Shown here: positions 14,794-53,574 of the stretch, piece by piece
Layout of the letters: each line of letters opens with the position of its first letter
How positions within the stretch are numbered: position 1 is the stretch's first letter
NCBI RefSeq assembly: GCF_015223065.1
Contig: NZ_JADFBY010000004.1
Coordinates: 310,001-374,000 of the forward strand
DNA from: Mucilaginibacter sp. JRF
GTDB lineage: Bacteria; Bacteroidota; Bacteroidia; Sphingobacteriales; Sphingobacteriaceae
Length of the DNA: 64,000 bases
Direction: 5' to 3'
The notes under the pieces: generated by a model
Seen by the model: only the letters and a program-made list of their open reading frames with translations
The model's database searches: none
Told to the model about the DNA's origin: nothing
Made by a program: the position numbers and the translations under genes

Positions 14794-14814
14794 ATGACTA
14801 TGAGTTTTTAACCC

Positions 14815-15108: not shown

Positions 15109-15130
15109 TATACTATGCTGATGTATCCGG

Positions 15131-15138: not shown

Positions 15139-15177
15139 ATCAACAAAGCATAAAAGTATCGATACCAATTATCAAGA

Positions 15178-15630: not shown

Positions 15631-15644
15631 TACCCAAAAATAAC

Positions 15645-15675
15645 AAAAAAGCCGACCTATCAAGGTCGGCTTTTT
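15645..15675 (-). terminator. Rho-independent terminator after the LiaF-like gene
   Basis: Perfect 8-bp stem GCCGACCT / AGGTCGGC with a 4-nt loop, A tract on one side and T tract on the other, so it could work on both strands. It lies 30 bp after the stop of the 15705-16706 gene. Confidence 0.85.
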
Positions 15676-15704
15676 GATTGTATAGAGCAATTGTGAAAAG
15701 GGTT

Positions 15705-16706: not shown

Positions 16707-16709
16707 GGC

Positions 16710-17306
16710 TTATTCAGTTGGAGGGTTATCATTAAAAGTTTGTTCGGCTTTTTTTTCGGGCTCAGCAGCAGGCTGCTCAGGGGCTGGCTGGCTTTGGTTC
16801 CAGTCCTTGCGGTCCCACGGTTGCGATTTAGCGCCCGACAGGATAAAGGCTATACCCGCGCCTACCAGTACCAATGGCCAAAGCACATCAAAATCAACAT
16901 CAGGTATCAGGTGAAACTCATCCAACAAAAAGGCTGCGCCAACTATAATGAGTATTGCACCGGTTATTATACCCACGGTTGATGTTTTCTTTACCGGCGG
17001 CATGCCAAAAGGCTTACCGGCATCAAAACCGGGCATGGTAAAGTTGGGCTGGCTGCTGCTTTTAAAGGGATTGTACGGCTCCTGCGGCGGTACGGTATAA
17101 TCAGTAGCAGGGTCGATAAATATGTTGCGTTTTGGCAATACTATCCAAAGTATAACGTATATCATGCCACCAAAACCCTTTACTATAAAGGTTACCAAAA
17201 ATATAACCCTTATAATTGATACATCAACACCGAAGTAGTCGGCTAAGCCAGCGCAAACACCGCCAATTTTTTTGCGTTGCTCGTCGCGATAAAGTTTCTT
17301 TTCCAT
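16710..17306 (-). CDS. PspC-domain membrane protein
   Basis: The first 65 residues are a clear PspC domain (RKKIGGVCAGLADYFGVD, then a helix ending in ILWIVLPKRN), known from phage-shock and other membrane-stress systems. A Pro-rich linker is followed by two more hydrophobic helices (GIITGAILIIVGAAFLL and FDVLWPLVLVGAGIAFIL) like those of LiaF/DUF5668 proteins. The tail is Pro/Glu/Ala-rich. It pairs with the adjacent 15705-16706 gene, which shares the C-terminal helix type. Confidence 0.87.
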   Translation of the reverse strand: MEKKLYRDEQRKKIGGVCAGLADYFGVDVSIIRVIFLVTFIVKGFGGMIYVILWIVLPKRNIFIDPATDYTVPPQEPYNPFKSSSQPNFTMPGFDAGKPFGMPPVKKTSTVGIITGAILIIVGAAFLLDEFHLIPDVDFDVLWPLVLVGAGIAFILSGAKSQPWDRKDWNQSQPAPEQPAAEPEKKAEQTFNDNPPTE

Positions 17307-17324
17307 TGCTTTGTCAGTTTGTTT

Positions 17325-18029
17325 CTAAATCTGCCCGAATGTTGGTTTGATGATGATCTCGTCAACGTTCGCGCCATTGCTCATGTTTAAAATATTTGTA
17401 ATGGCCGATGCAATATCCTCGGGTAATATCATGCGGTTGGTATCAACCTGTGCGCCTTTCCATGAGTCGGTATACGTTGACCCCGGAATTACAGCGGTGA
17501 CCTTTACACCGTGAGGCTGCATTTCGAGCTTCATTACCTTATTAAGACCTACCAAAGCATACTTTGTTACGCTATACACACCCGCCTCAGCTATGGGGTG
17601 CAACCCCGCTACCGAGCATATATTGAAGATGTGCCCTTTACCGACAGAAACCATACTTTTACCGAAGAAACGGTACAACTCATAGGCCGGGCGCAGGTTG
17701 GTATCCATCTGTTTTTGGTACGATTCATCATCGTCATCAAGTATAGCCGCAGGCTTGAACATACCCACATTATTCACCAAAATATCGACGAAGCCCATGT
17801 TTTTCTCGGTGAATTCGGCAAAATTTTTCAGTTCAGCAAGAATACTGCAATCGGCAACGGTAGTAAAAACCTGAATTTGGGGGTTGATGCTCAGCAATTC
17901 GTCCTTAAATGCATCCAACTCGGCAACGTTACGCGAGCAGATGGATACGTTAATACCCTGTTTAACCAGTGCTATAGTAATGGCGCGGCCCATACCCTTG
18001 GTGCCGCCGGTGATGATGGCGTTCTTCAT
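17325..18029 (-). CDS. short-chain dehydrogenase/reductase
   Basis: 234 residues with the classical SDR set: cofactor loop TGGTKGMG, NNVG, catalytic Ser in ICSVAG and YSVTK. The Arg after the second strand (CSRN) suggests NADP preference. The substrate is not predictable; the closest look is to 3-ketoacyl-ACP reductase-like SDRs. It is transcribed away from the PfkB kinase gene, with which it shares a 94-bp divergent region. Confidence 0.9.
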   Translation of the reverse strand: MKNAIITGGTKGMGRAITIALVKQGINVSICSRNVAELDAFKDELLSINPQIQVFTTVADCSILAELKNFAEFTEKNMGFVDILVNNVGMFKPAAILDDDDESYQKQMDTNLRPAYELYRFFGKSMVSVGKGHIFNICSVAGLHPIAEAGVYSVTKYALVGLNKVMKLEMQPHGVKVTAVIPGSTYTDSWKGAQVDTNRMILPEDIASAITNILNMSNGANVDEIIIKPTFGQI

Positions 18030-18123
18030 TATGTGTTGTGTGTAAGTTTTGCGTTAAAATTGCGGATAAATATATACCATAAAATTAATACAAATTTTAC
18101 CTTTACCTTTCCACCCCGATTTT

Positions 18124-19008
18124 ATGAGTACTGATAACAAGGTTTACGATATATGCTGCATTGGCCACATTACACACGATAAGGTTGTTACCCCACAACA
18201 TGAGGTTTACATGCCCGGCGGTACAGCCTTTTATTTTTCGCACGCCGTGAGGCAAATGCCGGTTAGTTATAAGCTGATCACCGCCTTAGCGCAGGAACAG
18301 ATAGCTTATGCCGATGGATTACAACAAATAGGTATTGAGCTTACCGCGTTGCCCAGCCAGCATACTGTTTACTTTGAAAACAGCTACGCCGAAAACAGCG
18401 ATCACCGTACGCAGCGCGTTCTGCAAAAGGCGGATGCTTTTACCGTTGCCGATGTAGCCGGTACCCATGCCCGCTTTTACCATTTAGGCCCATTATTGGC
18501 CGATGATATTGATGCCGCGATATTCAAGGAACTATCAGCAAAAGGCACCTTATCGCTTGACGCGCAGGGATTATTGCGAGAGGTGGTGAATATGGAGGTA
18601 AAGGCTATTGACTGGGCCGATAAAGCCACCCTGCTACCTTACGTACACATATTAAAAGCCAACGAATATGAAGTAGCCGTACTTACCGGCACTGATGATA
18701 TACAGGAGGGCGCCAAAATATTAGCCCAAATGGGCGTAAAGGAAGTGGTAATTACCCTGGGTACCCAAGGCTCCATAATTTATGCTGATGGCGAATTCCA
18801 TACCATCCCGGTTTATAGACCCGAAGCATTTAAGGATGCCACCGGTTGCGGCGACACCTACATGGCCGGCTACCTTTACAAACGCGCTACAGGTGCAGGT
18901 ATTGAGGATGCCGGGCACTTTGCATCGGCTATGGCAGGGTTAAAAGCAGGCATATCCGGTGCCTTTAAAGGTACCGAACAAGCCTTGCTTCAATTTATGG
19001 GTCGTTAA
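18124..19008 (+). CDS. PfkB-family carbohydrate/nucleoside kinase
   Basis: Ribokinase-fold kinase of 294 residues. The N-terminal domain shows DICCIGHITHDKVV and PGGTAFYFSHAV. The C-terminal signature DATGCGDTYMAGYL contains the catalytic base Asp and the anion hole. The substrate (sugar or nucleoside) cannot be told. The gene is convergent with the universal stress gene, with only nine bases between stops. Confidence 0.9.
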   Translation: MSTDNKVYDICCIGHITHDKVVTPQHEVYMPGGTAFYFSHAVRQMPVSYKLITALAQEQIAYADGLQQIGIELTALPSQHTVYFENSYAENSDHRTQRVLQKADAFTVADVAGTHARFYHLGPLLADDIDAAIFKELSAKGTLSLDAQGLLREVVNMEVKAIDWADKATLLPYVHILKANEYEVAVLTGTDDIQEGAKILAQMGVKEVVITLGTQGSIIYADGEFHTIPVYRPEAFKDATGCGDTYMAGYLYKRATGAGIEDAGHFASAMAGLKAGISGAFKGTEQALLQFMGR

Positions 19009-19017
19009 TATTGCTCT

Positions 19018-19776
19018 TTATCCCGGGAAAACCAGTACCGGCACACGCAGGTTGTTCAACCTGTCGGCAGTGAGTTTGCCTTGCAGTACTTCCCTAAAGT
19101 GGTATTGATGATTGGCTAAAGCCAGCAGGTCGGTTTTCATGGTGTTAATGATAACATCCGTGGCTTTTTGCAGATCGCGCTCGGTGGTGTTGCTGAATTT
19201 CAGGTTATCATAATTCACAAAACGGCGAATACCATCGTTAAATACATCAATGGCGTAGCTTTCGTCCATACGCGGCAGGCCACTGGCCGGTAAATGCGCT
19301 ACGTGCACACTGGCATTATTATCGCGCGCCATGTTGGCCAGGTAGCGCACTATTGGCAGCTGGCAATACCGCAAGTCGGCCATATAGGTGATGCGCTTAA
19401 AGCCGTTAAAAGCATAGTATTCCGGTAATACCAGCAGCGGGCAGGCCACCCTGCTGAGTATGTTATGCAAACAAATATTATTACTGCTGCTGAGGCCGCT
19501 TACAAGCAATGAGGTATTGCGCTGGTTAACCAATTGGGCAAGCTGATTTTCTGTAAGGCCGCTAACATCTATCTGCTCACCGTAAACAGTACTCTCGAGC
19601 TGATCGGGTTTGGATATCTCTACCCCGCCTGATGCCAGCACCTTAACCCCCGTTTTTACATCGGCAACATTGGCCACCACTAATGGTATACCTGCAAGTC
19701 TTGCAATTTCGGCGCCTATGCGCATAGCACGATCACTTTGTACCGAGCCATCACTTAATAATAATACCTCTTTCAT
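19018..19776 (-). CDS. universal stress protein family (tandem-domain type)
   Basis: 252 residues, enough for two Usp domains. The first begins KEVLLLSDGSVQSDRAMRIGAEIARL. The second half has KRITYMADLRYCQ and ends in the strand LRVPVLVFPG. The ATP-binding motif GxxGxxxxxxxG is not clear in either half, so this may be a non-nucleotide-binding member. Family members help cells survive stasis and stress. It diverges from the mla-like pair across a 368-bp gap. Confidence 0.8.
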   Translation of the reverse strand: MKEVLLLSDGSVQSDRAMRIGAEIARLAGIPLVVANVADVKTGVKVLASGGVEISKPDQLESTVYGEQIDVSGLTENQLAQLVNQRNTSLLVSGLSSSNNICLHNILSRVACPLLVLPEYYAFNGFKRITYMADLRYCQLPIVRYLANMARDNNASVHVAHLPASGLPRMDESYAIDVFNDGIRRFVNYDNLKFSNTTERDLQKATDVIINTMKTDLLALANHQYHFREVLQGKLTADRLNNLRVPVLVFPG

Positions 19777-20144
19777 AATGTAGAAAATTTAAAAGCAAAC
19801 AAGGCATAACCGCCTAAAAGGCGCATCAGCATTAAATTCAAAAAATATTAAAACTTTCAGGTTGCTTAGCGGAGGTGGGATTCGCTATTCTTTTAACAAA
19901 AACACTATGTTTTTAAAATGGTTTACCCAAAATTAAAAAATAATCAAAGATTAAATCAAGATTACAAAACAAAAATTTTCAGCTTAAACTGTTTATTTAA
20001 AGCATCATTAAAAACAATTCTACCATTCTTAATCTTTAATAGTTAATTTTAGAACAACTGCTAAATTCACATCACCATGCGGGTTAAAAAAACAGTTTGT
20101 TATTAAAAACGTATTTTTAACCCGGTTTATCTAAAAAAGCAAAA
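19777..20144 (+). other. 368-bp divergent intergenic region
   Basis: AT-rich spacer between usp (minus) and the MlaE-like gene (plus). I see no open frame of note and no repeat apart from the inverted repeat at 20080-20124. It must hold both promoters, but no clear TAnnTTTG pair was found. Confidence 0.7.
20080..20124 (+). promoter_or_regulatory. perfect inverted repeat in the leader of the mla-like operon
   Basis: CGGGTTAAAAA (20080-20090) and TTTTTAACCCG (20114-20124) are perfect 11-bp inverted copies separated by 23 nt, ending 20 bp before the ATG. It could be an operator or an mRNA stem; the long loop argues against a terminator. Confidence 0.5.
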
Positions 20145-32608: not shown

Positions 32609-33679
32609 CTACTTCTTCTTAACAAAATAATATTTGCCGTTATATTCTCCTACGGGCAAATACGTTTCTATTAGCTTTGATATTAGTGTGATACCGGCTT
32701 CGCCGTCAACACAGAACATCTCCGGGTATTTATCGCCGGTGGTATGGTGTGTGGCTTTTTCCAGCACCTCGTTAAAGGTTATTCCCATATCCTGCAACCC
32801 GCTAACGGCTGTAAGCAGGTCGATTTTGGTGTTATCATCAAAATTGAATAATGATGTAAAATCAACCCTCGGGAACACTTCCAGCTTGCCCCCAACACCA
32901 GCGTTATGAATACGCACACCACGCGGAGTATAAAACTCCCTGCCCATCTCAAACTTTTCGATCATCTCGTGCACGGTAGGGTTATGGTATTTACGGCCCT
33001 TGCCAAAATAACGTGGATCAAAGTGATTAGGATCGTGCTCGTCGGCCTCCCAGTTGCGCGAGTTCATTTTCTTTACCTTTTGGTCGGCAAAGCTCATATC
33101 TACGCCTATCAGGTATATATCACTAAAACCCAGGTAAGCGGCTACCTGTATAGCGGCATTAACTACGGTTTTATTGATACCGCATTTAGGCAGATCGGCC
33201 CTGAACTCCGGGCGATCGGTATTCAGCCAGTAAACATTTTCGCGGTGATCTATATACTTATCAAACTCAACGTTCGATGGGTGAATGTCAGGAAAGAAAG
33301 CATAAGGTACTTTGGGTAATATCTCCTCGTTTATCTGCTGATGCATGTCCTTTATCACCAGATCATCAGTAACCATGTAAAAGCTTGGCAGCCAGTTAAG
33401 GCGCTCAAACATCAGGTTAAAGCGATTAAAGCCCATGGTATACTCATCCTTTAAAAAATATAAAGGCATTTTGTTTAGACTGGGCGCATTGCCGATAATG
33501 AACACACGCTTGCCTTTATGTATATCTTTCAGATCGGCCCAACGCTTCAAATTATCCGCATCTTTGCCTCTCGACATCCTTTTTAGCTTCACCATCCCAT
33601 AGTGCCCCATACGCATGGCAAAAACCTTTAAGCCATCGTTTTGTATGGTGCTTATCCCCTTTCTTACTAACGATTTCAT
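32609..33679 (-). CDS. DUF115-type protein, copy 1 (possible glycosyltransferase)
   Basis: 356 residues. The key segment is KGKRVFIIGNAPSLNKMPLY followed by DEYTMGFNRFN, a nucleotide-binding-like loop shared by DUF115 proteins and reminiscent of the AGNGPSL loop of GT42 sialyltransferases. Further conserved segments are WLPSFYMVTDDLVIKDM and YLGFSDIYLIGVDMSFADQ. Adjacent gene 33687-34514 is a paralogue. In other bacteria DUF115 proteins take part in nonulosonate transfer to flagellin or in surface-sugar synthesis. With two CMP-sugar synthetases in this locus, a transferase role is plausible but unproven. Confidence 0.75.
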   Translation of the reverse strand: MKSLVRKGISTIQNDGLKVFAMRMGHYGMVKLKRMSRGKDADNLKRWADLKDIHKGKRVFIIGNAPSLNKMPLYFLKDEYTMGFNRFNLMFERLNWLPSFYMVTDDLVIKDMHQQINEEILPKVPYAFFPDIHPSNVEFDKYIDHRENVYWLNTDRPEFRADLPKCGINKTVVNAAIQVAAYLGFSDIYLIGVDMSFADQKVKKMNSRNWEADEHDPNHFDPRYFGKGRKYHNPTVHEMIEKFEMGREFYTPRGVRIHNAGVGGKLEVFPRVDFTSLFNFDDNTKIDLLTAVSGLQDMGITFNEVLEKATHHTTGDKYPEMFCVDGEAGITLISKLIETYLPVGEYNGKYYFVKKK

Positions 33680-33686
33680 TTTACAA

Positions 33687-34514
33687 TTACTTATTGAACA
33701 ATGTGTAATAATCTACCTTATCAAACACCTCGAGCTTGCCGTTTATGGTAGCATCTTTTATTGTGCGCCCGTGCTTTTCAAAAGTTTCACGTGCCATGCG
33801 GTAAGCCAGTTCTTCACCCTTATAGTCTGGTATACGCCAGGCCATGCCTTTTTTGTAATAACCCTGTGTAAAGTGGTTCTTTTCGTCGCCGGTTGAATAT
33901 ACCAGCGCGCCAGGTGTGCCTGTTTGCTCGTAATTATGATCCTTACCTACAAGGTAAACCTCATCAAAACCCATATAAAAGGCCAGCTGCATACAAACAG
34001 CGGTAACGCTGTGCCCGCCCCAGGTGGTCTTTGTCAGATCGGTTGAGAATTGCGGTGTATAATCAGACCTAATGAATGACAGGTTATCCTTTTTAGTAAA
34101 CAGATGACGGGCGTTCCAGTTAAAGAATTTAGGAAGATGATCCAAAGCATCCAGATCATCACGAAACTGTACCAGCTGTATAGCGATATCCTGCACAACG
34201 ATATATGTTGGCGTAAAGCCCATATCGCCCGAGTTAAGGTACATCCTGTTCATGGCGATGGTAACCTCACCCTTTAAAAACGACAGATCGGTTTGTTTTA
34301 GGCTTGGGCCATTGGCCACTATAAAACAACGCTGCCCTTTATGTTTGTTATGATATTGAGCCAGCTTAGCCTTGTTTTGGCGCGCAAACGAGGTGTTGCC
34401 ATGCCATGAAATAAAATGAGGGATATCCTTTAACCTTACTTTAATGGCGTTCGCTATCCTTTCAAACGAAAGTTCTTTCAGCGACATTTCTTTCAGGTAT
34501 CTTAATCTGCTCAT
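33687..34514 (-). CDS. DUF115-type protein, copy 2 (possible glycosyltransferase)
   Basis: 275 residues, paralogous to the 32609-33679 gene: KGQRCFIVANGPSLKQTDLS, EVTIAMNRMYLNS, GFTPTYIVVQDIAIQLV, and FYMGFDEVYLVGKDHNYEQ align block by block. It is shorter by about 80 residues, mainly in the C-terminal region. It is 7 bp upstream of copy 1 in the transcript and directly follows the aldolase gene (1-bp gap). A tandem pair suggests two linkages or two acceptors in the same glycan. Confidence 0.75.
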   Translation of the reverse strand: MSRLRYLKEMSLKELSFERIANAIKVRLKDIPHFISWHGNTSFARQNKAKLAQYHNKHKGQRCFIVANGPSLKQTDLSFLKGEVTIAMNRMYLNSGDMGFTPTYIVVQDIAIQLVQFRDDLDALDHLPKFFNWNARHLFTKKDNLSFIRSDYTPQFSTDLTKTTWGGHSVTAVCMQLAFYMGFDEVYLVGKDHNYEQTGTPGALVYSTGDEKNHFTQGYYKKGMAWRIPDYKGEELAYRMARETFEKHGRTIKDATINGKLEVFDKVDYYTLFNK

Positions 34515-34515: not shown

Positions 34516-35280
34516 TTATTTAAGTTTTTGCATTTCGGCGTGGGCGGTGCGGCCCATAAATAAAAAGTCGGTACTAAAGGCTATCAGGTTATAACCATCA
34601 GCTTGTTTTGCCTTAACCAGATCAATATGTGGTTCTATCACGTGGTAGCCCATGGTAATATTTTTAGCCTTGCAAATGCTCTGAAACTTTTTAAGCGCCT
34701 CAATAACTATCGGCTCGTTATACTGGCCGGGGATACCCAATGAACCCGATAGATCATACGGACCAATAAAGGTACCATCAATACCCGGTGTATCAATAAT
34801 TGATTCCAGATTATTTACGCCATCAATATGCTCAATTTGCGCTATCACTACCTGGTGCTCATTAACCCACGTTTTATACTCGTCAAAGCTAAAGCCATAA
34901 CGTTGCGCGCGGTTAAGCCCAACACCACGTTTGCCTACCGGCGGATACTTGGCATAAGCCACGGCCTGTGCGGCATCTTCGGCAGTACAGGTCATGGGTA
35001 CAATGATACCATCGGCACCGGCATCAAGCACACGCTTTATAACCACCTCCTCGTTTTTTGAAACACGAACCAAAGCGGCCATACCACGTGCCTGTATAAA
35101 GCCGATAAGCACCTGCGCCTCATTATAATCAATAGCGGTATGCTCCAGGTCGATACACAACCAGTCGAAACCGGCCTCGGCCAAAATATCAATAATGGCT
35201 TGATGCGGAATGGTTACCCACGAGCCTATGGTATTCTCTTTATTTTTAAGCTTTTGTTTAAGCGAAGTATCTTTCATCAA
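34516..35280 (-). CDS. HpcH/HpaI-family class II pyruvate-type aldolase
   Basis: 254 residues. Family members reversibly cleave or join 2-keto-3-deoxy acids using pyruvate and an aldehyde. Visible active-site parts: GFDWLCIDLEHTAID (His base), ALVRVSKNE (Arg), metal-binding Glu in VIAQIEHIDGVNN, and Asp in FIGPYDLSGSLG. Catabolic relatives act on 2-dehydro-3-deoxyglucarate or 4-hydroxy-2-oxoheptanedioate, but no catabolic genes are near. Instead it lies next to a CMP-sugar cytidylyltransferase, pointing to synthesis of a 3-deoxy-2-ulosonic acid. ATGs at 35280 and 35277 are both possible. Confidence 0.92.
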   Translation of the reverse strand: MMKDTSLKQKLKNKENTIGSWVTIPHQAIIDILAEAGFDWLCIDLEHTAIDYNEAQVLIGFIQARGMAALVRVSKNEEVVIKRVLDAGADGIIVPMTCTAEDAAQAVAYAKYPPVGKRGVGLNRAQRYGFSFDEYKTWVNEHQVVIAQIEHIDGVNNLESIIDTPGIDGTFIGPYDLSGSLGIPGQYNEPIVIEALKKFQSICKAKNITMGYHVIEPHIDLVKAKQADGYNLIAFSTDFLFMGRTAHAEMQKLK

Positions 35281-35342
35281 TATTGGTTTTCATAGGGCAA
35301 GCCACGCTGCCTTAGTAAGTTATATATTGGGTTATGCTGATG

Positions 35343-36023
35343 TTACAGCAAACCCTTAAGCCTGCGCTCCATCAGGAACTCGGCCCAGTAAAAATCTTCC
35401 ATATCGTCAATATCGGCAGCCTCAAGCCTGTCAATACTGTACATCATTGGTTTTGAACCCAGGCGCGTTTGCGTACGCTCATTAGTTTCGCGCGAGAAGA
35501 TGTAGAAACATGAATTCTCGTGAAAAATTGGTGGCAGATCCTGCGTGCGGGTAAGCACCAATGGATCGTGGTTTACGCCCGAACCATCAGCCCAATAGTA
35601 ACGTTGCTTAACTTCTGTTACAGAAAAAAGCGCGTCGTGCTCGCTTTGCGCGAAGAAAGCCTCGATAGACTCATCAACCGTTTTGGTGGTTAAAAGCGGA
35701 TTGGTACTGTGGGTTTGTAAAAAGAAATCGCCCGTGGTTTGTGATAGGTCATAAGCTATTAAAGGCTGTATGGTAACCATATCGCCCAATAAAAACTCGG
35801 GACGCTCTAAAATGGTTATCTTTTCAAAATTCCGGCTGGCATTTTCAGCTATCTCGTCCGAGTCGGTATTCACTACTATCTCGGTAATATATTTACTGTT
35901 GCTGAGGGCTTCCATAACCCAGTGAAAACAAGGTTTACCCGCCAATGGCCTGATGTTTTTGTTAGGCACACGCTCTGAGTAGCCTTTCATAGGCACAAGC
36001 GCTTTAATACCCGGAATATTCAT
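35343..36023 (-). CDS. CMP-sugar cytidylyltransferase, NeuA/KdsB-like
   Basis: 226 residues of the acylneuraminate cytidylyltransferase family. The CTP loop is ALVPMKGYSERVPNKNIRPL (usual form has ARGGS; here Lys-Gly-Tyr-Ser), then LAGKPCFHWVMEAL, EIVVNTDSDEIAENA and FLQTHSTNPLLT. It activates an ulosonic acid with CTP. It is distinct from the second cytidylyltransferase at 49066-50277 and lacks the HAD domain. One base separates it from the YhcH-like gene, and the aldolase follows 62 bp downstream. Confidence 0.88.
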   Translation of the reverse strand: MNIPGIKALVPMKGYSERVPNKNIRPLAGKPCFHWVMEALSNSKYITEIVVNTDSDEIAENASRNFEKITILERPEFLLGDMVTIQPLIAYDLSQTTGDFFLQTHSTNPLLTTKTVDESIEAFFAQSEHDALFSVTEVKQRYYWADGSGVNHDPLVLTRTQDLPPIFHENSCFYIFSRETNERTQTRLGSKPMMYSIDRLEAADIDDMEDFYWAEFLMERRLKGLL

Positions 36024-36024
36024 A

Positions 36025-36474
36025 TTATACTTTTACTTTTATAACTATCTTTTTAATGTAGCCTGGCTCTTTAGCGCAATAAACAGGCGCGTGCGCATCC
36101 TCGGGGTAAAAAACGGCGAATATATCGTTGCCGATAATTACCTCTCCCTGCGGATCGATCATATCATAAAATGTGGCATCCTTAACCTCGTTATATTCGG
36201 TATGCGGGGTAAGGCGCTTAACGTTCGACCATGGAATACGCTCCTCATTTTTGATGCAATACTGTACATCAATTACATGGCGATGCGCCTCGTAGCCAAA
36301 GTGGTTTTTTATCTGCGTTTCGTACTCCATTACCACTGCCTTCGCATTATCGGTAATCGGGTATTCGCCTAACGGGATCTCAGGGTCGGCATTCTTGATA
36401 AACAGCAAGCCCTGATAAATATCTTCATTTATCGATTTATAGAACTCAATATTGGTGAGTGAATCAATAATCAT
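36025..36474 (-). CDS. YhcH/YjgK/YiaL family protein, possible ulosonic-acid anomerase
   Basis: 149 residues, beta-rich. Metal-binding-like residues lie in GYEAHRHVIDVQY and in FYPEDAHAP, as in the family. E. coli YhcH (NanQ), in the sialic acid operon, has been described as an N-acetylneuraminate anomerase. CMP-ulosonate synthetases use one anomer, so a homologue one base upstream of such a synthetase makes chemical sense. EbgC-like beta-galactosidase partners are also in this family, so function is inferred from context. Confidence 0.85.
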   Translation of the reverse strand: MIIDSLTNIEFYKSINEDIYQGLLFIKNADPEIPLGEYPITDNAKAVVMEYETQIKNHFGYEAHRHVIDVQYCIKNEERIPWSNVKRLTPHTEYNEVKDATFYDMIDPQGEVIIGNDIFAVFYPEDAHAPVYCAKEPGYIKKIVIKVKV

Positions 36475-36485
36475 TTACTATCAAA

Positions 36486-37235
36486 TTAAATTTTGCCATT
36501 GCTGGCATATACATTAAGATACAGGGGGCCTTTACCCTCCTCGGCGGTGAAGCTACCACCGGCGGCTTTTAGTATCGCCAGGCCCGCGGCAACATCCCAC
36601 AGGGCAATATTATTTTCGGTATAAGCTTCGGCACTGCCTTTGGCCACATGCACCAGTGACATAGCCGCCGAACCGAACAACCGCACCTTTTTAAATTCCT
36701 GAACGTTGGTGATAAAGGCGTTCATGTTACTTTGGTCGAGCGTTGAGTAAACAGGGAAGCCGGTAGTAAGTATGCTATCCTTTTTCTGTTCAACCGCGCT
36801 TACGGTAATTGGTTTATCATTAATAAAAGCACCTGTGCCAACCAAGCCTTTGTACATGCGCTCGTGCAAAAAATCGTACACAACGCCAAGTACCGGCTCA
36901 TTATTTTTCCATAGGCCGATAGATACACAGTAGATATCAATATCGCGCGAGTAGTTCAAACTACCATCCAGCGGATCAACTATCCAGCGGTAGCCTTCGG
37001 CATCAGCATTTTTTACAAAGCCCGATTCCTCGCTTAAAATATCAAAGTCAGATTCCTCGCTAAGTATCTTAACAATAAGCTGTTCTGATTCAACATCGGC
37101 GGCAAGCTTTATATCTTTACCAATGCTGCTATTTATTACAACCTCGGCGTCCTCGGTTTTTAGCAGCAATTTACCAGCCTCAATAGCCGCTTTAACGGCC
37201 AGCTCAAGCTGTGGTAATAAATTGGTTTCGCTCAT
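36486..37235 (-). CDS. inositol-monophosphatase-like sugar phosphatase (IMPase/CysQ family)
   Basis: 249 residues. Metal-site motifs: DILSEESGF with the first Glu, VDPLDGSLNYSRDI (usual DPLDGTxNF), and the late WDVAAGLAILKAAGG. The family dephosphorylates inositol phosphate, PAP, fructose-1,6-bisphosphate or histidinol phosphate. Between a sugar-phosphate isomerase and an anomerase-like gene, it is a candidate for removing phosphate from the sugar precursor before or after aldol joining. A strong hairpin separates it from the SIS gene. Confidence 0.9.
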   Translation of the reverse strand: MSETNLLPQLELAVKAAIEAGKLLLKTEDAEVVINSSIGKDIKLAADVESEQLIVKILSEESDFDILSEESGFVKNADAEGYRWIVDPLDGSLNYSRDIDIYCVSIGLWKNNEPVLGVVYDFLHERMYKGLVGTGAFINDKPITVSAVEQKKDSILTTGFPVYSTLDQSNMNAFITNVQEFKKVRLFGSAAMSLVHVAKGSAEAYTENNIALWDVAAGLAILKAAGGSFTAEEGKGPLYLNVYASNGKI

Positions 37236-37284
37236 GTAATTTGTTAGGGTTATAATGGCTATAAGTATAGCTATATTTTATGAA

Positions 37285-37320
37285 ACCAACCGGGACGGCT
37301 TTGGGACAATCCCGGTTGGT
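37285..37320 (-). terminator. strong hairpin between SIS and phosphatase genes
   Basis: Perfect 11-bp arms ACCAACCGGGA / TCCCGGTTGGT with a 14-nt loop, 7 bp after the SIS stop. The T run after it on the minus strand is short (TTTCATAAAAT), so it may be a partial terminator or an mRNA-stabilising stem inside the operon. Confidence 0.5.
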
Positions 37321-37326
37321 AATGTA

Positions 37327-37953
37327 TTAATTAGCCAGGGCTAAAAATTCATCGTCTTTTGACAGGTAATTTACAATGATGTGGTTCAATATCATGTGCA
37401 CATCCTCTATAGGGCCGTAATCACCTTTAGGGTTTGGCGTGTATAATGGCACGGTTGATATCTCGTTAAGTTTACCACCCAGAAAACCTACGAACGCGAT
37501 GGTTTTACCACCCAGCTCATTAGCATATTCGGCAGCTTTTACCAGGTTTGGCGAGTTACCGCTTGCCGAGATTGCGATCAATACGTCGCCTGCAACAAAC
37601 TGACCGCGCATTTGCTCAACAAATACATCGTCAAAGTTATTATCGTTACCTACCGCGGTGATCATAGGCACGTTATCGGTAAGGGCTACAATCTTCGGGC
37701 GGAATTTTGAGAAATAGCGCACAAAGAAACGGAAATCAGCCTGCATGTGCGATGCTGTAGCCGCGCTGCCGCCGTTACCTACAACATAAATAGTGTTACC
37801 GCTTTTAAAAGCTTCGATAAAAGTTGTAACTACTTCGCCTAATTGCTTAGGATCAATTTTGTTAAGGATGTCGGTTAAACGGCCAACGTAATCTTGTAGA
37901 TAATCTTTCAGCAGATCCGTTCTGTCTACTTTCAGTAAGTCAATCTTTTCCAT
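37327..37953 (-). CDS. SIS-domain sugar-phosphate isomerase, GmhA-like
   Basis: 208 residues: VVGNGGSAATASHMQADF, ISASGNSPNLVKAAEYA and a C-terminal EDVHMILNHIIVNYL. This is the layout of sedoheptulose-7-phosphate isomerase. GmhA binds zinc through His, Glu, Gln and His; here the matching positions read His, Asp, Glu and His, so the site looks kept but altered. No other heptose genes (gmhB, hldE, hldD) are in the window. That favours a different sugar, such as the precursor of the ulosonic acid suggested here. Confidence 0.88.
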   Translation of the reverse strand: MEKIDLLKVDRTDLLKDYLQDYVGRLTDILNKIDPKQLGEVVTTFIEAFKSGNTIYVVGNGGSAATASHMQADFRFFVRYFSKFRPKIVALTDNVPMITAVGNDNNFDDVFVEQMRGQFVAGDVLIAISASGNSPNLVKAAEYANELGGKTIAFVGFLGGKLNEISTVPLYTPNPKGDYGPIEDVHMILNHIIVNYLSKDDEFLALAN

Positions 37954-37989
37954 TTAATTATAGTATTTTGTAGTGAGTGTGTACTTTGC

Positions 37990-38982
37990 TTAAAAATCCT
38001 TTTGCTCGTAAACTTTATCAATAATGGTCATCAGTTTCAGCGCGTCATCAGAGTTACCGTAAACTATAGGTTGGTTATTGTCGATAGCATCAAAAAAGTG
38101 ATCCATCTCGTAACGCCAGCTGTTGTTGTTAACATATTTGGTAACTACCTCATCCTTCCAGGTAGCGGCAGGCGCGGTTGAACGGTTTTTAGCTACCGAC
38201 AGGGTTTCTTCGCCGTATGACATGGATGAGGTGATCAAACCATTTAATACCATATAACCTTTTTCAAGGAATATCTCTAACGAGAACAAGTGCCTCCACT
38301 GCGACATGGTTGAGTGCAATGATGCTACCTTACCTGTTTTTGAATCTTTCAGGATAACGAAGGCATTATCTTCTACATCCATATGCCAGTACAGGTTTGA
38401 TACTTCGGCCTTAACTACATCATAATCACCCGAAAGGAACAGGAACAGATCGAGCATGTGTATACCCTGGTCCATCAGGATACCACCACCTGAAAGTTCT
38501 TTTTTAGCACGCCACTGGTTAAAGTAATCCTTAGTAACACTTTTACCATAACGACCGCGTAACCAAAGTACTTTACCGTACTCACCACTGTCTATCAGGC
38601 GTTTCATGTGCAATACGCTATCGTGGTGGCGGTGGTTAAAGCCGTACATCAGCGTTTTGCCGCTGCGTTGCTCCACCTCTTTTATCTCCAATATATCGGC
38701 AGCGGTAAATGCAGGTGGCTTTTCGCAGAATACGTGTTTGCCGGCATTAAGCGCGCGTATGGTAAGTTCCTTATTTAAAAAATTGGGAGTACAAACAATA
38801 ACCACATCCAGGTCGGGGTGATTGATGATCTCGTCGTGGCTTACATTTGGTATACCATCAACCTCGGCCCCCACATTGGGCTCTGATATGGCAAGGACAG
38901 TGCCTTTCTTGATCTCCTCAATAGCTGTACGGCGGGTTTTACCCATAACACCGTAACCTATTATACCAATTTTATAACTCAT
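37990..38982 (-). CDS. Gfo/Idh/MocA-family oxidoreductase
   Basis: 330 residues. N-terminal Rossmann loop IGIIGYGVMGKTRR, the family Lys in GKHVFCEKPPAFTA, and the catalytic-region motif GGGILMDQGIHMLDL. These enzymes oxidise or reduce sugars and sugar nucleotides with NAD(P). It lies between a 2-hydroxyacid dehydrogenase and the SIS isomerase, so it probably sets an oxidation state in the same precursor pathway. The substrate is unknown. Confidence 0.9.
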   Translation of the reverse strand: MSYKIGIIGYGVMGKTRRTAIEEIKKGTVLAISEPNVGAEVDGIPNVSHDEIINHPDLDVVIVCTPNFLNKELTIRALNAGKHVFCEKPPAFTAADILEIKEVEQRSGKTLMYGFNHRHHDSVLHMKRLIDSGEYGKVLWLRGRYGKSVTKDYFNQWRAKKELSGGGILMDQGIHMLDLFLFLSGDYDVVKAEVSNLYWHMDVEDNAFVILKDSKTGKVASLHSTMSQWRHLFSLEIFLEKGYMVLNGLITSSMSYGEETLSVAKNRSTAPAATWKDEVVTKYVNNNSWRYEMDHFFDAIDNNQPIVYGNSDDALKLMTIIDKVYEQKDF

Positions 38983-39030
38983 AAAGTAGTTTAGTTTAAA
39001 TAGTTTTTAATTGTATTGATAATGTTTAGT

Positions 39031-39141
39031 TCAAATATCTCGTTGTTTTAGTACCTGAGCTGTATGCCCACCTACTGTTGTATTCGCAGGCACATCCTTA
39101 ACCACTAAGCTACCCGCGCCTATGGCGTTATCGCCTAATAT
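39031..39141 (-). pseudogene. remnant of a hexapeptide-repeat acyltransferase (C-terminal end only)
   Basis: Directly after the 2-hydroxyacid dehydrogenase stop, and in the same frame, the minus strand reads LGDNAIGAGSLVVKDVPANT, then TVGGHTAQVLKQRDI and TGA. This is the C-terminal coil of a left-handed beta-helix acetyltransferase (NeuD, serine or sugar O-acetyltransferase type). The roughly 37 codons have no start and lack the catalytic His, so the gene is broken, probably by deletion during assembly of the locus. The remnant may still lie within the transcript. Confidence 0.8.
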
Positions 39142-40062
39142 TTATGATAACGATGCGATCAGGTTATTAACCGCGTCGATCTCCATCAATAACTTACCTT
39201 CTTCGGCGTATGAGCCGATGTGCGGAGTAAGCACCACATTATCTAACTCCGTTAACGGACCGGTATATGGCTCCTGCACAAACACATCAATAGCTGCCGA
39301 ACCTAATTTACCTATGGTTAATGCTGTGTATAGCGCATCCTCGTCAACAATACCACCGCGTGATATATTGATCAGCATGGCAGTCGGTTTAACCAGCTCT
39401 AACTGTGCCGCGCCTATAACCGGCGATTTATCGGCATTACCCGGTACGTGCAGTGTTATTATGTCGGCTGTTTTTAATACGGTATCAAAATCAGCAAGTT
39501 GCACATTATTCGCGGCGGCCCATTCAGCATCGGCATACGGATCAAAACCAATAACCGGGTTACCAATACCTCTGAATAACTGCGATACCAGCTTACCAAT
39601 ACGTCCTAAACCTATAACACCTATCTTTTTATCGAGGATGAGATTACCGGTCTGCTTTTTCCAAACTTTGTTTTTTAATGAGGCATCGGCTTGTGGAATA
39701 CGGCGCAGTAACGATAAGGTCATGCCCAGGGTAAGCTCGGCCACCGCACGGGTTGGGCCATCGGGTGTATTTTTAACAATGATGCCTTTTTTGGCGGCAT
39801 ATTCCAGATCAACACTATCCATGCCGATACCTACCCGGCTGATTACTTTCAGATCAGGCAGATTATCCATAACCCTGGCGGTAAGCGGTTCAACACCGGC
39901 AACTATCCCCACGCAATCCTTAGCTAATTCAATTACTTCATCCTCGGTAAGCTTACGCCCGTATGGATTATTTATAACGGCGTATCCGTTTTGTTCAAGT
40001 AAACTGAAGGGTTCGTTGCCAACCTGGCCAAAAGATGATGGAGATGTTAATACCTTTTTCAT
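39142..40062 (-). CDS. D-isomer-specific 2-hydroxyacid dehydrogenase (SerA/phosphoglycerate dehydrogenase-like)
   Basis: 306 residues, catalytic and NAD domains only; the ACT domains of full SerA are absent. Landmarks: GVIGLGRIGKLVSQLF, catalytic Arg in NISRGGIVDEDAL, Glu in FVQEPYTGP, and His in LTPHIGSYAEEG. It would convert a 2-hydroxyacid to a 2-ketoacid or the reverse. It is the first gene of the second unit of the locus, after a 406-bp gap. The C-terminus abuts an acyltransferase remnant, so the end may lie at a rearrangement joint. Confidence 0.9.
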   Translation of the reverse strand: MKKVLTSPSSFGQVGNEPFSLLEQNGYAVINNPYGRKLTEDEVIELAKDCVGIVAGVEPLTARVMDNLPDLKVISRVGIGMDSVDLEYAAKKGIIVKNTPDGPTRAVAELTLGMTLSLLRRIPQADASLKNKVWKKQTGNLILDKKIGVIGLGRIGKLVSQLFRGIGNPVIGFDPYADAEWAAANNVQLADFDTVLKTADIITLHVPGNADKSPVIGAAQLELVKPTAMLINISRGGIVDEDALYTALTIGKLGSAAIDVFVQEPYTGPLTELDNVVLTPHIGSYAEEGKLLMEIDAVNNLIASLS

Positions 40063-46511: not shown

Positions 46512-47888
46512 TTATACAGCATCGGCAAGTATTTGCCTTATACTTTGTTTATACGAAAAACCCGATTCACCAAAATGACGAATCAATATTTGCTCTATTT
46601 TTTCAATCTGTTTATCTCCTGATACACTATTTACCTTTTTCAACAACCCTTCCCCATCGCTAAAAATATCATCCAAACCACCATAATCCACAAACACTTC
46701 ATCTTTGAAACGGAAACAAGGCTTGTGCTTTAGCATCACGGTGAAGTAAACGGTTGTGTTGTGACATATACAAAAGTCTGAACTGTTGATCAGCATTGAT
46801 ATATGGGCTGAACCTTTTAGTGCTTCGGCCAAACCTGTACATTGGTCGAAACTATAATCCTCGGGCTTGTTTGATGGGTGCATCAGCACTTTATATTTAA
46901 AGCCCTTCTTATTGGCTACTTCCTCGGCAATGGCCAGCATTTTCATGTTTGACATGCGCAGCGTTTGCCCGCTAAAAAACACACTGAAACAGCCATGATC
47001 TGCCTTCACATCGTTTTCCTGCTGGTAGAACTTGTCAATGCTGTAAGTAGCATCAGATGTTCCTGACAATAAAACCTGCTGCCTCGGGTTGGCAACATTA
47101 TCCTGATATACAGGCAGCACGCTTTCACCCCAGCCCAGCACGTAATCAGCTTGCGAATTAAGGTAGTTGATAACCGAGTGCGAAAACTCATTATCCTTAC
47201 GCTTAAGGTAGATGGCATGTTGTAGCGTAGCCGTCTTGATGTTAAGCTTTCGGGCGGCTTGTACCATCATACTGCCACACTCCTTCATGTCAGCAAATAC
47301 TATCAGCAGTTTTGCATCTACCAATAATTTATTTTGCTCAACATATGTTAAAATATCATGGTAATGCAAACACTTAGTGAGCACAAACAGGTTCTTTTTC
47401 CGGGTATCATGCTCAAAAGCATTTGAAAGCTTTACCGCACGCGCTATGTTTAACAGCAGTCTGCACTTTGACAGGAACGATGCTACGTTGAACTGTTTCG
47501 CTCCTTTACCGAATTTATTTACTGTGTAAACTTTAACACGATAATCACTCAACTGATCAAGCACAAAGCGACATTGCCTTTTATAATCATCCCTGCCATC
47601 GTCCTCCATTAAAAAGTGTATGGTTTGGGTATTCTGTGCATCAGCATTAATCAGCTCGTTATCAAAGTGATTTTTAGTTTGTTTGAATAATAAAGCGATC
47701 AAAAAATCCTTTATACCGTGTTTCAGATATTTACTACGTAAATGGCTTACAGATTTTTCATCGTAATGATAAAGTCCGGCAAGCTCATTAGCCATTATGT
47801 TACCATAATTGTAACCATGCAAAGTAACCTTAAGCCACTGTCGCCAGTTGCTCAAAAACTTTTGCTTATATGGTTTGCCAATTATCAT
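46512..47888 (-). CDS. possible GT-B-type surface-polysaccharide transferase, family not recognised
   Basis: 458 residues, no signal peptide or clear membrane helix. The middle reads KTATLQHAIYLKRKDNEFSH, then SQADYVLGWGESVLP, CFSVFFSGQTLRMSNMKML, KYKVLMHPSNKPEDY and INSSDFCICHNTTVYFTVML. A QHA/QHG loop, a GWGE loop, HPSN, and a late donor-binding-like NSS...HNTT block are arranged as in KpsS/LipB and CDP-glycerol-type GT-B transferases. I cannot place it in a named family. Context supports a role in assembling the repeat unit. Confidence 0.6.
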   Translation of the reverse strand: MIIGKPYKQKFLSNWRQWLKVTLHGYNYGNIMANELAGLYHYDEKSVSHLRSKYLKHGIKDFLIALLFKQTKNHFDNELINADAQNTQTIHFLMEDDGRDDYKRQCRFVLDQLSDYRVKVYTVNKFGKGAKQFNVASFLSKCRLLLNIARAVKLSNAFEHDTRKKNLFVLTKCLHYHDILTYVEQNKLLVDAKLLIVFADMKECGSMMVQAARKLNIKTATLQHAIYLKRKDNEFSHSVINYLNSQADYVLGWGESVLPVYQDNVANPRQQVLLSGTSDATYSIDKFYQQENDVKADHGCFSVFFSGQTLRMSNMKMLAIAEEVANKKGFKYKVLMHPSNKPEDYSFDQCTGLAEALKGSAHISMLINSSDFCICHNTTVYFTVMLKHKPCFRFKDEVFVDYGGLDDIFSDGEGLLKKVNSVSGDKQIEKIEQILIRHFGESGFSYKQSIRQILADAV

Positions 47889-49065: not shown

Positions 49066-50277
49066 TCAGGATGACCATTTATCCTGAGTTAATTTTTCGG
49101 CCATTGGTTTGGCGCAATAACCATTGTCAAACAACCATTCAACATACTCGCGTACCGCGCCATCGCCACCGCGTGTTTCAAGGTGTAAAATACCGGGTAT
49201 CGCCTTAACCTTACGTGTAGCATTAGCCGGGCAGGCTTTTATTCCGGCTGCCGATAGCAGATCGACACAGTTAATGTCATCGCCAATATAGGCCAGCTCC
49301 TGTAACGATATATTTTCGGCCTTACATATCTCACGGGCTATTTCCAGCTTTGAGCCGAAGCCCTTACCCTGATGGATATGATCGAGCTTAAGCTTGCTCG
49401 CCCTACGGGCTACCATCTGTGTATTTTCGGTAGTGATGATGGCTGTTTTTATACCCGCCTCGCGCAATAGCTGGAATGCCATACCATCGTGCGTGTTGAA
49501 TTTCTTGATCTCATCGCCGCTTTCGGTATAATACATACCGGCATCGGTCATTACGCCATCAACGTCAGATATAAATAGCTTTATCGGCGTTACCTGTTGC
49601 TCATCGCTTGTGCCAATGTATTTTTGGAAGAGTTTTTCCATGATCATCCAATCATCCGGCTCATCAATCTCAAAAGCTGTGAACTCCGGCATCTCATACA
49701 CCGTTATTTTACCTGATAAGCGATTTTGATCGGCCAGCACATTACCAACGGTTGATATGTAAAAGGCGCCATTTTCCATCAAGTCACCTTTAAAATCCTG
49801 CCTGCGTGGGCGGGCTTTATAGTCGTAATTGGTGGGTTTGCCGTCCTCTGTCCAAAAAAACCGTTTATAACGCACACAGGTTAATAAGGAGTCGGCATTC
49901 TCGTCAGCAAGTTGCTTAAAGGCGTCGTCAATATCCTGGCGGGTTATAAACGGATTGGTAGCCTGCACCAACACAAAATGCTCATGGGCAGGCAGCGATG
50001 TTTTATTTAAATATTCGAGCATAACCGCCTCTGTTGATGAGGTGTCAGCAGCATTTGCCGCGTCGCGGTCATATACTTCAAGCTTTGAAAAACCGAAGCT
50101 CTGTACAGTTTGCCTTATATCGTCAGAGTCTGTCGCGATAATGATACTATCAATGGCATCACTCTCCTGCAAAGCTTTTGCAGCCCAGTAAACCAATGGC
50201 TTACCACAAAACAATTTGATGTTTTTTAAAGGGATAGATTTACTCCCCCCTCTGACAGGTATAAAGGCAACAGACAT
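49066..50277 (-). CDS. neuA: bifunctional acylneuraminate cytidylyltransferase with C-terminal KdsC-like HAD phosphatase
   Basis: 403 residues in two parts. Residues 1-225 are a NeuA cytidylyltransferase (FIPVRGGSKSIPLKNIKLF, GKPLVYWAAKAL, SIIIATDSDDIRQ, VQATNPFIT). Residues 235-400 are a KdsC/YrbI-type HAD phosphatase (LFISDVDGVMTDAGMYY, AIITTENTQMVARR, GFGSKLEIAREI, AYIGDDINCVDLL). The HAD nucleophile and acid (DVD) are intact, so the domain is probably active. A phosphatase implies a pathway through a nonulosonate 9-phosphate, as described for Bacteroides KDN synthesis. It lies 12 bp downstream of neuB. Confidence 0.92.
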   Translation of the reverse strand: MSVAFIPVRGGSKSIPLKNIKLFCGKPLVYWAAKALQESDAIDSIIIATDSDDIRQTVQSFGFSKLEVYDRDAANAADTSSTEAVMLEYLNKTSLPAHEHFVLVQATNPFITRQDIDDAFKQLADENADSLLTCVRYKRFFWTEDGKPTNYDYKARPRRQDFKGDLMENGAFYISTVGNVLADQNRLSGKITVYEMPEFTAFEIDEPDDWMIMEKLFQKYIGTSDEQQVTPIKLFISDVDGVMTDAGMYYTESGDEIKKFNTHDGMAFQLLREAGIKTAIITTENTQMVARRASKLKLDHIHQGKGFGSKLEIAREICKAENISLQELAYIGDDINCVDLLSAAGIKACPANATRKVKAIPGILHLETRGGDGAVREYVEWLFDNGYCAKPMAEKLTQDKWSS

Positions 50278-50289
50278 ATTTTTGGCAGA

Positions 50290-51171
50290 TTAGGCTTTAC
50301 GATATTTCAGTTTATCACGTTGTACACGCTCAATATCAAGTATCTCAGTATTTTTGAACTGCAGCGCGTCATGTGCGTTGTGCAAGTCGCGAACCAGTTT
50401 TTGCATACCTGACACCTCTAATGAAGCGGCATGATCAGTACCTTTCCAGGTGCGGTTCTTGGTAAAGTGTCTTTCGATCCAGTGCGCGCCCAAGGTATAA
50501 GCAGCAATATCAGCCATAATACCCAGGTGATGACCAGAGAAACCTATGGCTTTAACACGGCTTTCGTAACGATCGTACAGGTTGTTGATCTCCAGCAAGC
50601 ACAGATCATTAAATGGTACCGGGTAACCTGAAGTACAGCTGTAAATAACCAAACGATCTTTAGCCTGGCCATTTTCTTCAAAGAATTTTACAGCTTCTTC
50701 AATTTCATCCTTAGTGGTCATACCGGTTGACAGGTGTATCTCACCTTTATAGCTATCGCGAAGTAGCGTAAGCATTTCGGTATGGTTGTTACAGGCCGAA
50801 GGTACTTTTATCAAAACCGGATCAAGCTCAATGATCTCGCGGGCTGAGGTAGCATCCCATACAGAGGTAGCGTAACCTAAACCTATCGACTCAGCATATT
50901 TTTTCAGTTCAGCATGCTGATCCTGAGAAAACTCTAAATACTCGCGGTGAGCACCATAGGTATCACCATATGAGTTGTATGGATTTGGATGCGGAGCGTT
51001 GTATTGCTCAGGAGTTAGTAACTCCTTGTTGGTTCTTTTTTGAAACTTACCAAAATCAGCACCACATGTTTTTGACAGGGACAGCAATTCCTTAGCTATC
51101 TCAAAATCACCCATGTGATTACAACCAATCTCAGAGATTACTTTTGGTTTTTGATAATTGAAATTGAACAT
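50290..51171 (-). CDS. neuB: NeuB-family nonulosonic acid synthase without SAF domain
   Basis: 293 residues covering only the TIM-barrel catalytic domain. It joins PEP to an N-acyl-mannosamine or similar aldose (phosphate) to give a nonulosonic acid. Landmarks: KVISEIGCNHMGDFEIAKEL, FGKFQKRTNKELL, TSVWDATSAREI, VLIKVPSACNNHTEML, HLSTGMTTKDEI, IGFSGHHLGIMADI and WIERHFTKNRTWKGTDHAA. Typical NeuB is about 340 residues and ends in an antifreeze-like SAF domain that closes the partner active site; that domain is absent. Product identity is open (sialic acid, KDN or relative). Confidence 0.9.
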   Translation of the reverse strand: MFNFNYQKPKVISEIGCNHMGDFEIAKELLSLSKTCGADFGKFQKRTNKELLTPEQYNAPHPNPYNSYGDTYGAHREYLEFSQDQHAELKKYAESIGLGYATSVWDATSAREIIELDPVLIKVPSACNNHTEMLTLLRDSYKGEIHLSTGMTTKDEIEEAVKFFEENGQAKDRLVIYSCTSGYPVPFNDLCLLEINNLYDRYESRVKAIGFSGHHLGIMADIAAYTLGAHWIERHFTKNRTWKGTDHAASLEVSGMQKLVRDLHNAHDALQFKNTEILDIERVQRDKLKYRKA

Positions 51172-53049: not shown

Positions 53050-53574
53050 TTACTTTTCCCAGATCAACAAGGCCTGGTTACTGGTAATATATACTTTCGC
53101 CTCCTCCTCGGTCATGATAAGCAGCCTGATCTTTCGTTTTATAACCTTTTCAGCCTTCTCAACCAAATTGGCTACGTAAGCTCGGTTTAAAGCTCCTCCA
53201 ACTAATAGCAAGTCGATAACCTGACTATCGCTGCCACGGGCAAAATCACCGGTAATGTAGGCCGAATGCAGATCACCTATTTTGCGTAAAACCTTTTCAA
53301 TGATTTCGTCGATGCCAACAAACTTGAACAGGATGTTGTTAAGCTCACCAAAAAACGGGTGAGTGCGATTTGCCTGGTAAAGCTTTTTGTTACCTGCTGC
53401 TGATGACACCAGTAAACCGGCATCCTCAAAACGGTTTAACTCTAGGCGTATGGCATTACTCGATTCGCCAAACTCCGATTCAAGGCTGCGTAAATAAGCC
53501 TTGGTATCGCTGTTCAGAAAAAACTTCAACAGCAGTTTGATACGGGTTTTTGATGTTATAAGCGTTTCGAGCAT
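53050..53574 (-). CDS. winged-helix protein fused to a degenerate nucleotidyltransferase domain; probable locus regulator
   Basis: 174 residues. The first 75 look like an ArsR-type winged helix (SKTRIKLLLKFFLNSDTKAY, SNAIRLELNRFEDAGLLVSS, KKLYQANRTHPFFGE). Residues 95-150 resemble a minimal MNT/Pol-beta nucleotidyltransferase: AYITGDFARGSDSQVIDLLL. In active members this reads GSxARG...SDIDL; here the second Ser is Asp and one of the paired Asp is Val, so catalysis is unlikely. Similar proteins occur in Bacteroidota surface-polysaccharide loci. Strong inverted repeats upstream are candidate sites. Confidence 0.78.
   Translation of the reverse strand: MLETLITSKTRIKLLLKFFLNSDTKAYLRSLESEFGESSNAIRLELNRFEDAGLLVSSAAGNKKLYQANRTHPFFGELNNILFKFVGIDEIIEKVLRKIGDLHSAYITGDFARGSDSQVIDLLLVGGALNRAYVANLVEKAEKVIKRKIRLLIMTEEEAKVYITSNQALLIWEK

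Follow-up and report, generated by a model that had tools for sequence, protein, structure and literature searches.

A seven-gene set within a polysaccharide locus

The window analysed here is a 64,000-nucleotide stretch of the genome of Mucilaginibacter sp. JRF (contig NZ_JADFBY010000004.1, positions 310,001 to 374,000). Between window positions 34516 and 40062 lie seven minus-strand genes, each an intact open reading frame, inside a long same-strand polysaccharide locus that additionally encodes GDP-fucose genes and several glycosyltransferases. In order of transcription they specify a 2-hydroxyacid dehydrogenase (2HADH), a Gfo/Idh oxidoreductase, a SIS isomerase, an IMPase-family protein, a YhcH-like protein, a cytidylyltransferase (CT, or CMT) and an HpcH/HpaI aldolase (ALD); two DUF115/MptE-like genes follow. 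Details of these features, with related loci elsewhere referred to by L numbers, are as follows.

39142..40062, minus strand: D-2HADH (PGDH/PdxB/GhrB superfamily), candidate aldonate 2-dehydrogenase; PF02826 2-Hacid_dh_C, 174.3 bits
37990..38982, minus strand: Gfo/Idh/MocA oxidoreductase, candidate aldose(-phosphate) dehydrogenase; PF01408, 77.6 bits, and C-terminal PF22725, 90.3 bits
37327..37953, minus strand: GmhA-like SIS isomerase; PF13580 SIS_2, 74.2 bits
36486..37235, minus strand: IMPase-family protein, candidate sugar-phosphate phosphatase; PF00459 Inositol_P, 177.5 bits
36025..36474, minus strand: YhcH/NanQ-like protein, candidate ulosonate anomerase; PF04074 (YhcH/DUF386), 117.7 bits
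35343..36023, minus strand: CT of the NeuA/PseF superfamily; PF02348 CTP_transf_3, 76.5 bits (cut-off 22.6)
34516..35280, minus strand: HpcH/HpaI class II (pyruvate-type) aldolase; PF03328 HpcH_HpaI, 121.7 bits (cut-off 25)
33687..34514, minus strand: DUF115/MptE-like protein, candidate CMP-ulosonate glycosyltransferase; PF01973, 53.5 bits (cut-off 34.6)
32609..33679, minus strand: second DUF115/MptE-like protein, candidate glycosyltransferase; PF01973, 43.5 bits; homologues adjoin the module in L002, L003, L004 and L006

The initial annotation had described this gene set, its families and the single-base spacing between the YhcH stop (36025) and the CT start (36023), and both the open reading frame calls and the Pfam searches bear the description out at the coordinates given there. 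All seven families exceed their Pfam gathering scores; none of the seven proteins reaches a curated equivalog model of a characterised enzyme. The ALD is listed with a TTG start, the ATG one codon on (at 35277) being the probable one.

Conservation of the gene set

The CT of the window served as seed for genome searches. Its close relatives (73-84% identity) are found in Foetidibacter (F. luteolus, L002), Mucilaginibacter (M. segetis, L004), Dyadobacter (D. luticola, L006), an unclassified Bacteroidetes metagenome-assembled genome (MAG) and a species of the window's genus, and around them the neighbours are the same and their order is largely kept. The whole set, mostly in the same order and mostly at 60-90% identity, recurs in L002-L006 and L050; because of this recurrence the association goes beyond chance, and the gene set is conserved in Bacteroidota. 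One of these loci, L005, lies on a 7.4 kb contig of a Planctomycetota MAG: its CT is 73% identical to that of the window and far outscores the only two other matches in 199 Planctomycetota genomes, and the contig may be misbinned Bacteroidota DNA. Distant CT relatives (36-52% identity) stand in other gene arrangements, and the closest plasmid matches to the CT are alphaproteobacterial.

Proximity can be expressed numerically. An ALD or 2HADH gene lies within 1.5 kb of the CT in 17 of the 20 loci of the window's CT subfamily and of none of 31 more distant NeuA/PseF-like CTs (∼29-36% identity), giving a Fisher p of ∼8e-11 that is optimistic, as the loci are related. The ALD was then used as a second, independent seed against 395 Bacteroidota genomes (E 1e-40), returning 14 places. 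Eleven of them have a CTP_transf_3 gene within ∼10 kb: five of the window's NeuA-like type and six of the KdsB family, five of which were scored and all five passed the PRK13368 subfamily cut-off. Of the remainder, L103 and L104 have no CT gene within 18-20 kb and L069 covers only 3.7 kb of sequence. Conserved co-occurrence of ALD and CT was a check that the initial annotation itself had proposed; the pairing holds, with two CT families and mostly without NeuB or KdsA alongside.

The same partnership appears outside these places. Most of the other aldolases nearest to the window's ALD also adjoin CTs, and in 72,556 plasmids the single strong ALD match adjoins the best CT match, in one Acuticoccus locus; the phage records, viral contigs and E. 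coli genomes searched gave no matches. In a tree of aldolases the CT-linked and other members are not cleanly separated, and branches are long. Some components vary: in related loci HAD phosphatases replace the IMPase, or a DHQS-like gene stands instead of it or alongside it, and Gfo/Idh identity, 73-91% in most type A loci, is 56% in a Sinorhizobium fredii plasmid.

A CMP-activated 2-ulosonic acid as probable product

Structure models were built from alignments without plasmid sequences. The best structural match of the CT model (pLDDT 94.1) is the CMP-Kdn synthetase 9t4z (Z 26.8, rmsd 1.8 over 217 residues), followed by CMP-Neu5Ac synthetases and then, at Z ∼20-21, by KdsB (20.9), GlmU and IspD (20.6). 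Residues S16, R18, K22 and N23, together with D204/D206 (the DxD metal pair), are invariant in 20 homologues, so that PF02348, a NeuA-like fold, the Lys-Asn motif and the DxD pair together place the protein in the CMP-ulosonate synthetase superfamily. Within that superfamily it falls below both specific models: 19.7 bits against the KdsB model TIGR00466 (cut-off 155.2) and 96.5 against the PseF equivalog (cut-off 205.7).

The DUF115 protein encoded next to the ALD gave a moderate-confidence model (pLDDT 77, pTM 0.82) whose best structural matches are the Maf glycosyltransferase 5mu5 (Z 15.4) and the sialyltransferase CstII (Z 12.3). PF01973 and the common fold assign it to the Maf/sialyltransferase-like proteins, with donor specificity putative. 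Most loci are accompanied by transferase-like DUF115 or polysialyltransferase-like genes; in L054 a polysialyltransferase-like gene takes the place of DUF115.

Because the CT is predicted to fold like CMP-Kdn synthetase and the DUF115 protein like Maf proteins and sialyltransferases, and because CTs of differing kind, together with a number of sialyltransferase-like transferases, surround the same enzymes, the product of the module is very likely a CMP-activated 2-ulosonic acid. We further consider it probable that this product is formed without a phosphoenolpyruvate (PEP)-dependent synthase. No KdsA-type PEP-dependent synthase is among the module genes, and the genome encodes its KdsA and KdsB on other contigs. 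To our knowledge every CMP-ulosonic acid characterised so far (Kdo, KDN, pseudaminic, legionaminic and sialic acids) owes its carbon skeleton to a PEP-dependent KdsA/NeuB-family synthase.

With the Kdo pathway (KdsD, KdsA, KdsC, KdsB) the module shares matchable isomerase, phosphatase and CT roles and a CMP-2-ulosonate as product class, and some relatives carry a KdsB-family CT; it differs in having no KdsA-type PEP synthase, an IMPase rather than the HAD phosphatase KdsC, and a 2HADH, Gfo/Idh, ALD and YhcH in addition. With the KDN, sialic and other nonulosonic acid pathways (NeuB, phosphatase, NeuA/PseF) it shares the fold and motifs of the CT, transferases that are DUF115/Maf-like or sialyltransferase-like, and YhcH, whose family includes a sialic acid anomerase; unlike them it has no NeuB, either in the module or beside most relatives, and its CT scores below the PseF cut-off. 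The kind of pathway is already known, but the route appears new: the open-access literature yielded no description of this gene set or pathway (subscription journals lay outside the search), in agreement with the initial annotation, which knew of none. Nor did it yield a bradyrhizose-type precedent, in which pyruvate would be joined to an inosose.

The SIS and YhcH-like proteins can be placed at family level. That annotation had likened the SIS protein to KdsD and GmhA; the role can be matched, but the likeness is loose. Unlike the KdsD-bearing Kdo pathway, the module has a SIS protein of 208 aa in which no CBS domain was found. With GmhA heptose isomerase pathways it shares the SIS fold family and a sugar-phosphate context; however, the score against the GmhA model TIGR00441 is 104 bits (cut-off 209), alignment shows Asp throughout this SIS group where the HxxxEF motif of GmhA has Glu, and the module lacks a heptose kinase and GmhB. 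The YhcH-like protein belongs to PF04074 but scores 90.9 bits against the N-acetylneuraminate anomerase model NF040884 (cut-off 160). As a separate observation, in the S. fredii plasmid locus (L073), which has no ALD, a protein resembling 2-oxopent-4-enoate hydratase (10606-11385; 29 bits only) is encoded between the SIS and IMPase genes.

Possible routes to the 2-keto acid

The initial annotation overlooked two things: the 2HADH as constant partner of the CT, and a possible oxidative route to a 2-keto acid. In 19 of the 20 loci of the CT subfamily a 2HADH gene lies no more than 10 kb from the CT, the twentieth locus being cut by a contig end, and in L102 (5681-7453) a degenerate CT domain (23.9 bits) is fused to a 2HADH. 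The window's protein combines PF02826 with the Arg/Glu/His triad of D-2-hydroxyacid dehydrogenases (R235, E264, H281), invariant in 19 homologues, and scores closest to PGDH models. Loci without ALD keep the enzyme: CT and 2HADH occur in L052, L058, L059, L075, L076 and L078, and SIS, Gfo, IMPase, CT and 2HADH in L073 and L079 (Leisingera). L095, a locus of the window's genus, combines the 2HADH-Gfo-SIS trio (75-90% identity) with a different CT, and its genome holds no ALD of the window's type at E 1e-40. Besides the trio, this locus (1-20000) encodes a short-chain dehydrogenase/reductase (SDR), an AroB-related TIGR04425-type gene, a YhcH and a PF04199 hydrolase, and no aldolase; it is probably a sister pathway.

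Around the 2HADH the accompanying families change. Candidate aldose dehydrogenases include Gfo/Idh, extended SDR, classical SDR and GAPDH-family (L096) proteins, and lactonase-type genes come from three unrelated families: 6-phosphogluconolactonase, SMP30 and PF04199. L051 pairs an extended SDR with a 6-phosphogluconolactonase above the curated cut-off (162 vs 124), L100 pairs Gfo with another (157 bits, likewise above cut-off), L076 has an SDR and an SMP30 lactonase-type gene, and the PF04199 hydrolase is present in six loci (L005, L050, L053, L054, L095 and L096). From family and context, PF04199 would here be a lactonase and Gfo or SDR an aldose dehydrogenase. The AroB-related, DHQS-like gene of L095 retains, around its Arg/Asn/His motif, the residues of AroB, which would fit a 2-ulosonate 7-phosphate supplied by the trio.

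Because the 2HADH is the constant partner, is present also in loci without ALD, and stands alongside unrelated aldose dehydrogenases and lactonases, we tentatively favour a route in which the ulosonic acid is made by oxidation and the ALD modifies the 2-keto acid. There is precedent for such chemistry. PdxB, a member of the 2HADH family, oxidises 4-phosphoerythronate to a 2-keto acid, and in the Epd-PdxB steps of pyridoxal phosphate synthesis an aldose phosphate is first converted to an aldonate, which the 2HADH-family enzyme then takes to the 2-keto acid. The module 2HADH differs in belonging to another branch, and its product would enter a CMP-sugar pathway.

Directly observed are the gene set, the families, the conserved catalytic residues, the predicted CT and DUF115 folds and the co-occurrence of the genes; every substrate, the order of the steps and the role of the ALD are what we infer. 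The SIS would convert a ketose phosphate to an aldose phosphate (the closest relatives of known function act on sedoheptulose 7-phosphate). Gfo/Idh would oxidise C1 to a lactone that is then opened to the aldonate, in some relatives by a lactonase, and the 2HADH would oxidise C2, in the manner of PdxB, to give the ulosonate. The IMPase would remove the phosphate, YhcH would supply the correct anomer, the CT would form the CMP-sugar, and the DUF115 glycosyltransferases would pass the sugar moiety to the polysaccharide. The ALD would act on the 2-keto acid, remaking its C3-C4 bond to set stereochemistry or chain length.

Still more tentatively, the loci may define a widespread class of CMP-2-ulosonate pathways independent of PEP: a 2HADH would oxidise an aldonate to the 2-keto acid, the ALD would be an optional modifier, and CT families, dehydrogenases and lactonases would be interchangeable. 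Any conserved route lacking a PEP-dependent synthase would imply that Bacteroidota and some Alphaproteobacteria have acidic surface sugars of a new class, with new enzymes to make them; the module genes are small and of soluble type, making each step directly testable.

Several points weigh against the oxidative route. ALD and CT are usually close neighbours (the 11 of 14 ALD-seeded places), yet the ALD is given a secondary role. The 2HADH tree puts most loci lacking ALD in a clade of their own, and the 2HADH substrate may therefore differ between the groups; the 2HADH of L057 is a distant one, perhaps unrelated. A dedicated lactonase is missing from the window, and NAD-dependent oxidation of an aldonate is uphill. 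Finally, the protein activities are all read from sequence and predicted folds.

On the oxidative route the ALD needs a role. H47, R72, E150 and D176, the counterparts of HpaI His45, Arg70 and the metal-binding Glu and Asp, are intact in all 17 aligned homologues, and because of this the enzyme is probably active; together with PF03328 these residues mark it as an HpcH/HpaI class II aldolase. The catabolic aldolases HpaI, GarL and RhmA share its family and catalytic residues, but the ALD falls far below their equivalog cut-offs (167.6 vs 368.8, 155.5 vs 406.75 and 137.5 vs 441, respectively) and is located in polysaccharide loci beside CT genes. HpcH/HpaI aldolases form and cleave the C3-C4 bond of 2-keto acids, class II members take glyceraldehyde and erythrose in vitro, and some HpcH aldolases use hydroxypyruvate together with D-erythrose or D-glyceraldehyde (PMC7610986). 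The ALD could thus remake the C3-C4 bond of a 2-ketoaldonate, use hydroxypyruvate derived from the 2HADH, or start from pyruvate and build a 3-deoxy acid.

The last of these was the proposal of the initial annotation: the ALD would join pyruvate to an aldose made by the SIS and IMPase, the resulting 3-deoxy-2-ulosonate would pass to YhcH and the CT, and Gfo/Idh and 2HADH would tailor acceptor or product. We regard this as less likely than the oxidative route, yet it has genuine support. Speaking for it are the intact catalytic residues, the pairing of ALD with CTs of both families and, on plasmids, the meeting of best ALD and best CT in one locus. The KdsB-type partners count in the same direction, the known substrates of KdsB being 3-deoxy sugars, as does the in vitro use of glyceraldehyde and erythrose by class II aldolases (PMC7610986). 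However, the proposal leaves the constant 2HADH and the lactonases without a clear role, and several loci have related CTs or the same trio without an ALD. A CMP-ulosonate pathway distinct from the Kdo and NeuB routes, as that annotation claimed, is supported by the wide co-occurrence of ALD and CT, by the CT and DUF115 folds and by the fused CT that the NeuB of the locus has to itself; given the loci without ALD, the aldolase as synthase and the 3-deoxy product are not established.

A variant that we judge improbable has a PGDH-like 2HADH and a phosphatase furnish hydroxypyruvate, to which the ALD would add an aldose, yielding a full rather than a 3-deoxy 2-ulosonate. The affinity of the 2HADH to PGDH models, the grouping of GAPDH, 2HADH, HAD, aldolase and CT genes in L096 and the acceptance of hydroxypyruvate by HpcH aldolases (PMC7610986) are consistent with it, but the 2HADH stays where no ALD is found, and a 6-phosphogluconolactonase would be without a role on a three-carbon acid.

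Very improbable is a carbocyclic scheme, in which the SIS-Gfo-2HADH trio would feed a cyclitol or other non-ulosonic sugar and the CT would activate a non-ulosonic compound. It draws on the IolG-like scores of Gfo (105 bits) and on TIGR04425, an AroB-related putative cyclizing phospholyase present in L002 (6466-7530, 462 bits, cut-off 400) with homologues in L004, L006, L053, L054, L095 and L097. This type of gene adjoins a classical SDR and, in most such loci, YhcH, and tends to occur where the IMPase is missing. Against the scheme, the window has no TIGR04425-type gene, the CT has the fold of CMP-Kdn and CMP-Neu5Ac synthetases, the transferases are sialyltransferase-like, and YhcH-like genes imply an anomeric centre. 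We considered the DHQS-like gene as part of the window's pathway and rejected it: it is absent from the window and forms a sub-module of some relatives.

The locus also carries a separate KDN-type module, 9-15 kb from the seven genes:

49066..51171, minus strand: separate KDN-type module; fused CT-HAD (49066-50277) and NeuB (50290-51171)

The HAD domain of the fusion resembles KDN-9-phosphate phosphatase, scoring 158.7 bits against that model (cut-off 180). That the CT and YhcH serve this NeuB/KDN pathway while the ALD is catabolic, a reading suggested by their presence in one locus, whose CT and ALD parts the initial annotation had named as dangers to its own proposal, is the least probable of all: the KDN module brings a CT of its own and occurs as a NeuB and CT-HAD pair without the aldolase module in six Bacteroidota loci (L016, L017, L028, L040, L044 and L046), the aldolase module has no NeuB near it in L002-L006 and L050-L056, and the closest other aldolases mostly stand beside CTs as well. 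Gene context points to the KDN-type pair being independent of the seven-gene module.

Three further observations may be recorded. L096 (5136-13528) combines a GAPDH-family gene and the aldolase with two genes each for CT and 2HADH, and looks like two adjacent CMP-ulosonate sub-pathways. In the window, a 458-aa protein without Pfam match occupies the flippase position (46512-47888), and a 174-aa protein, likewise without Pfam match, is encoded at 53050-53574.

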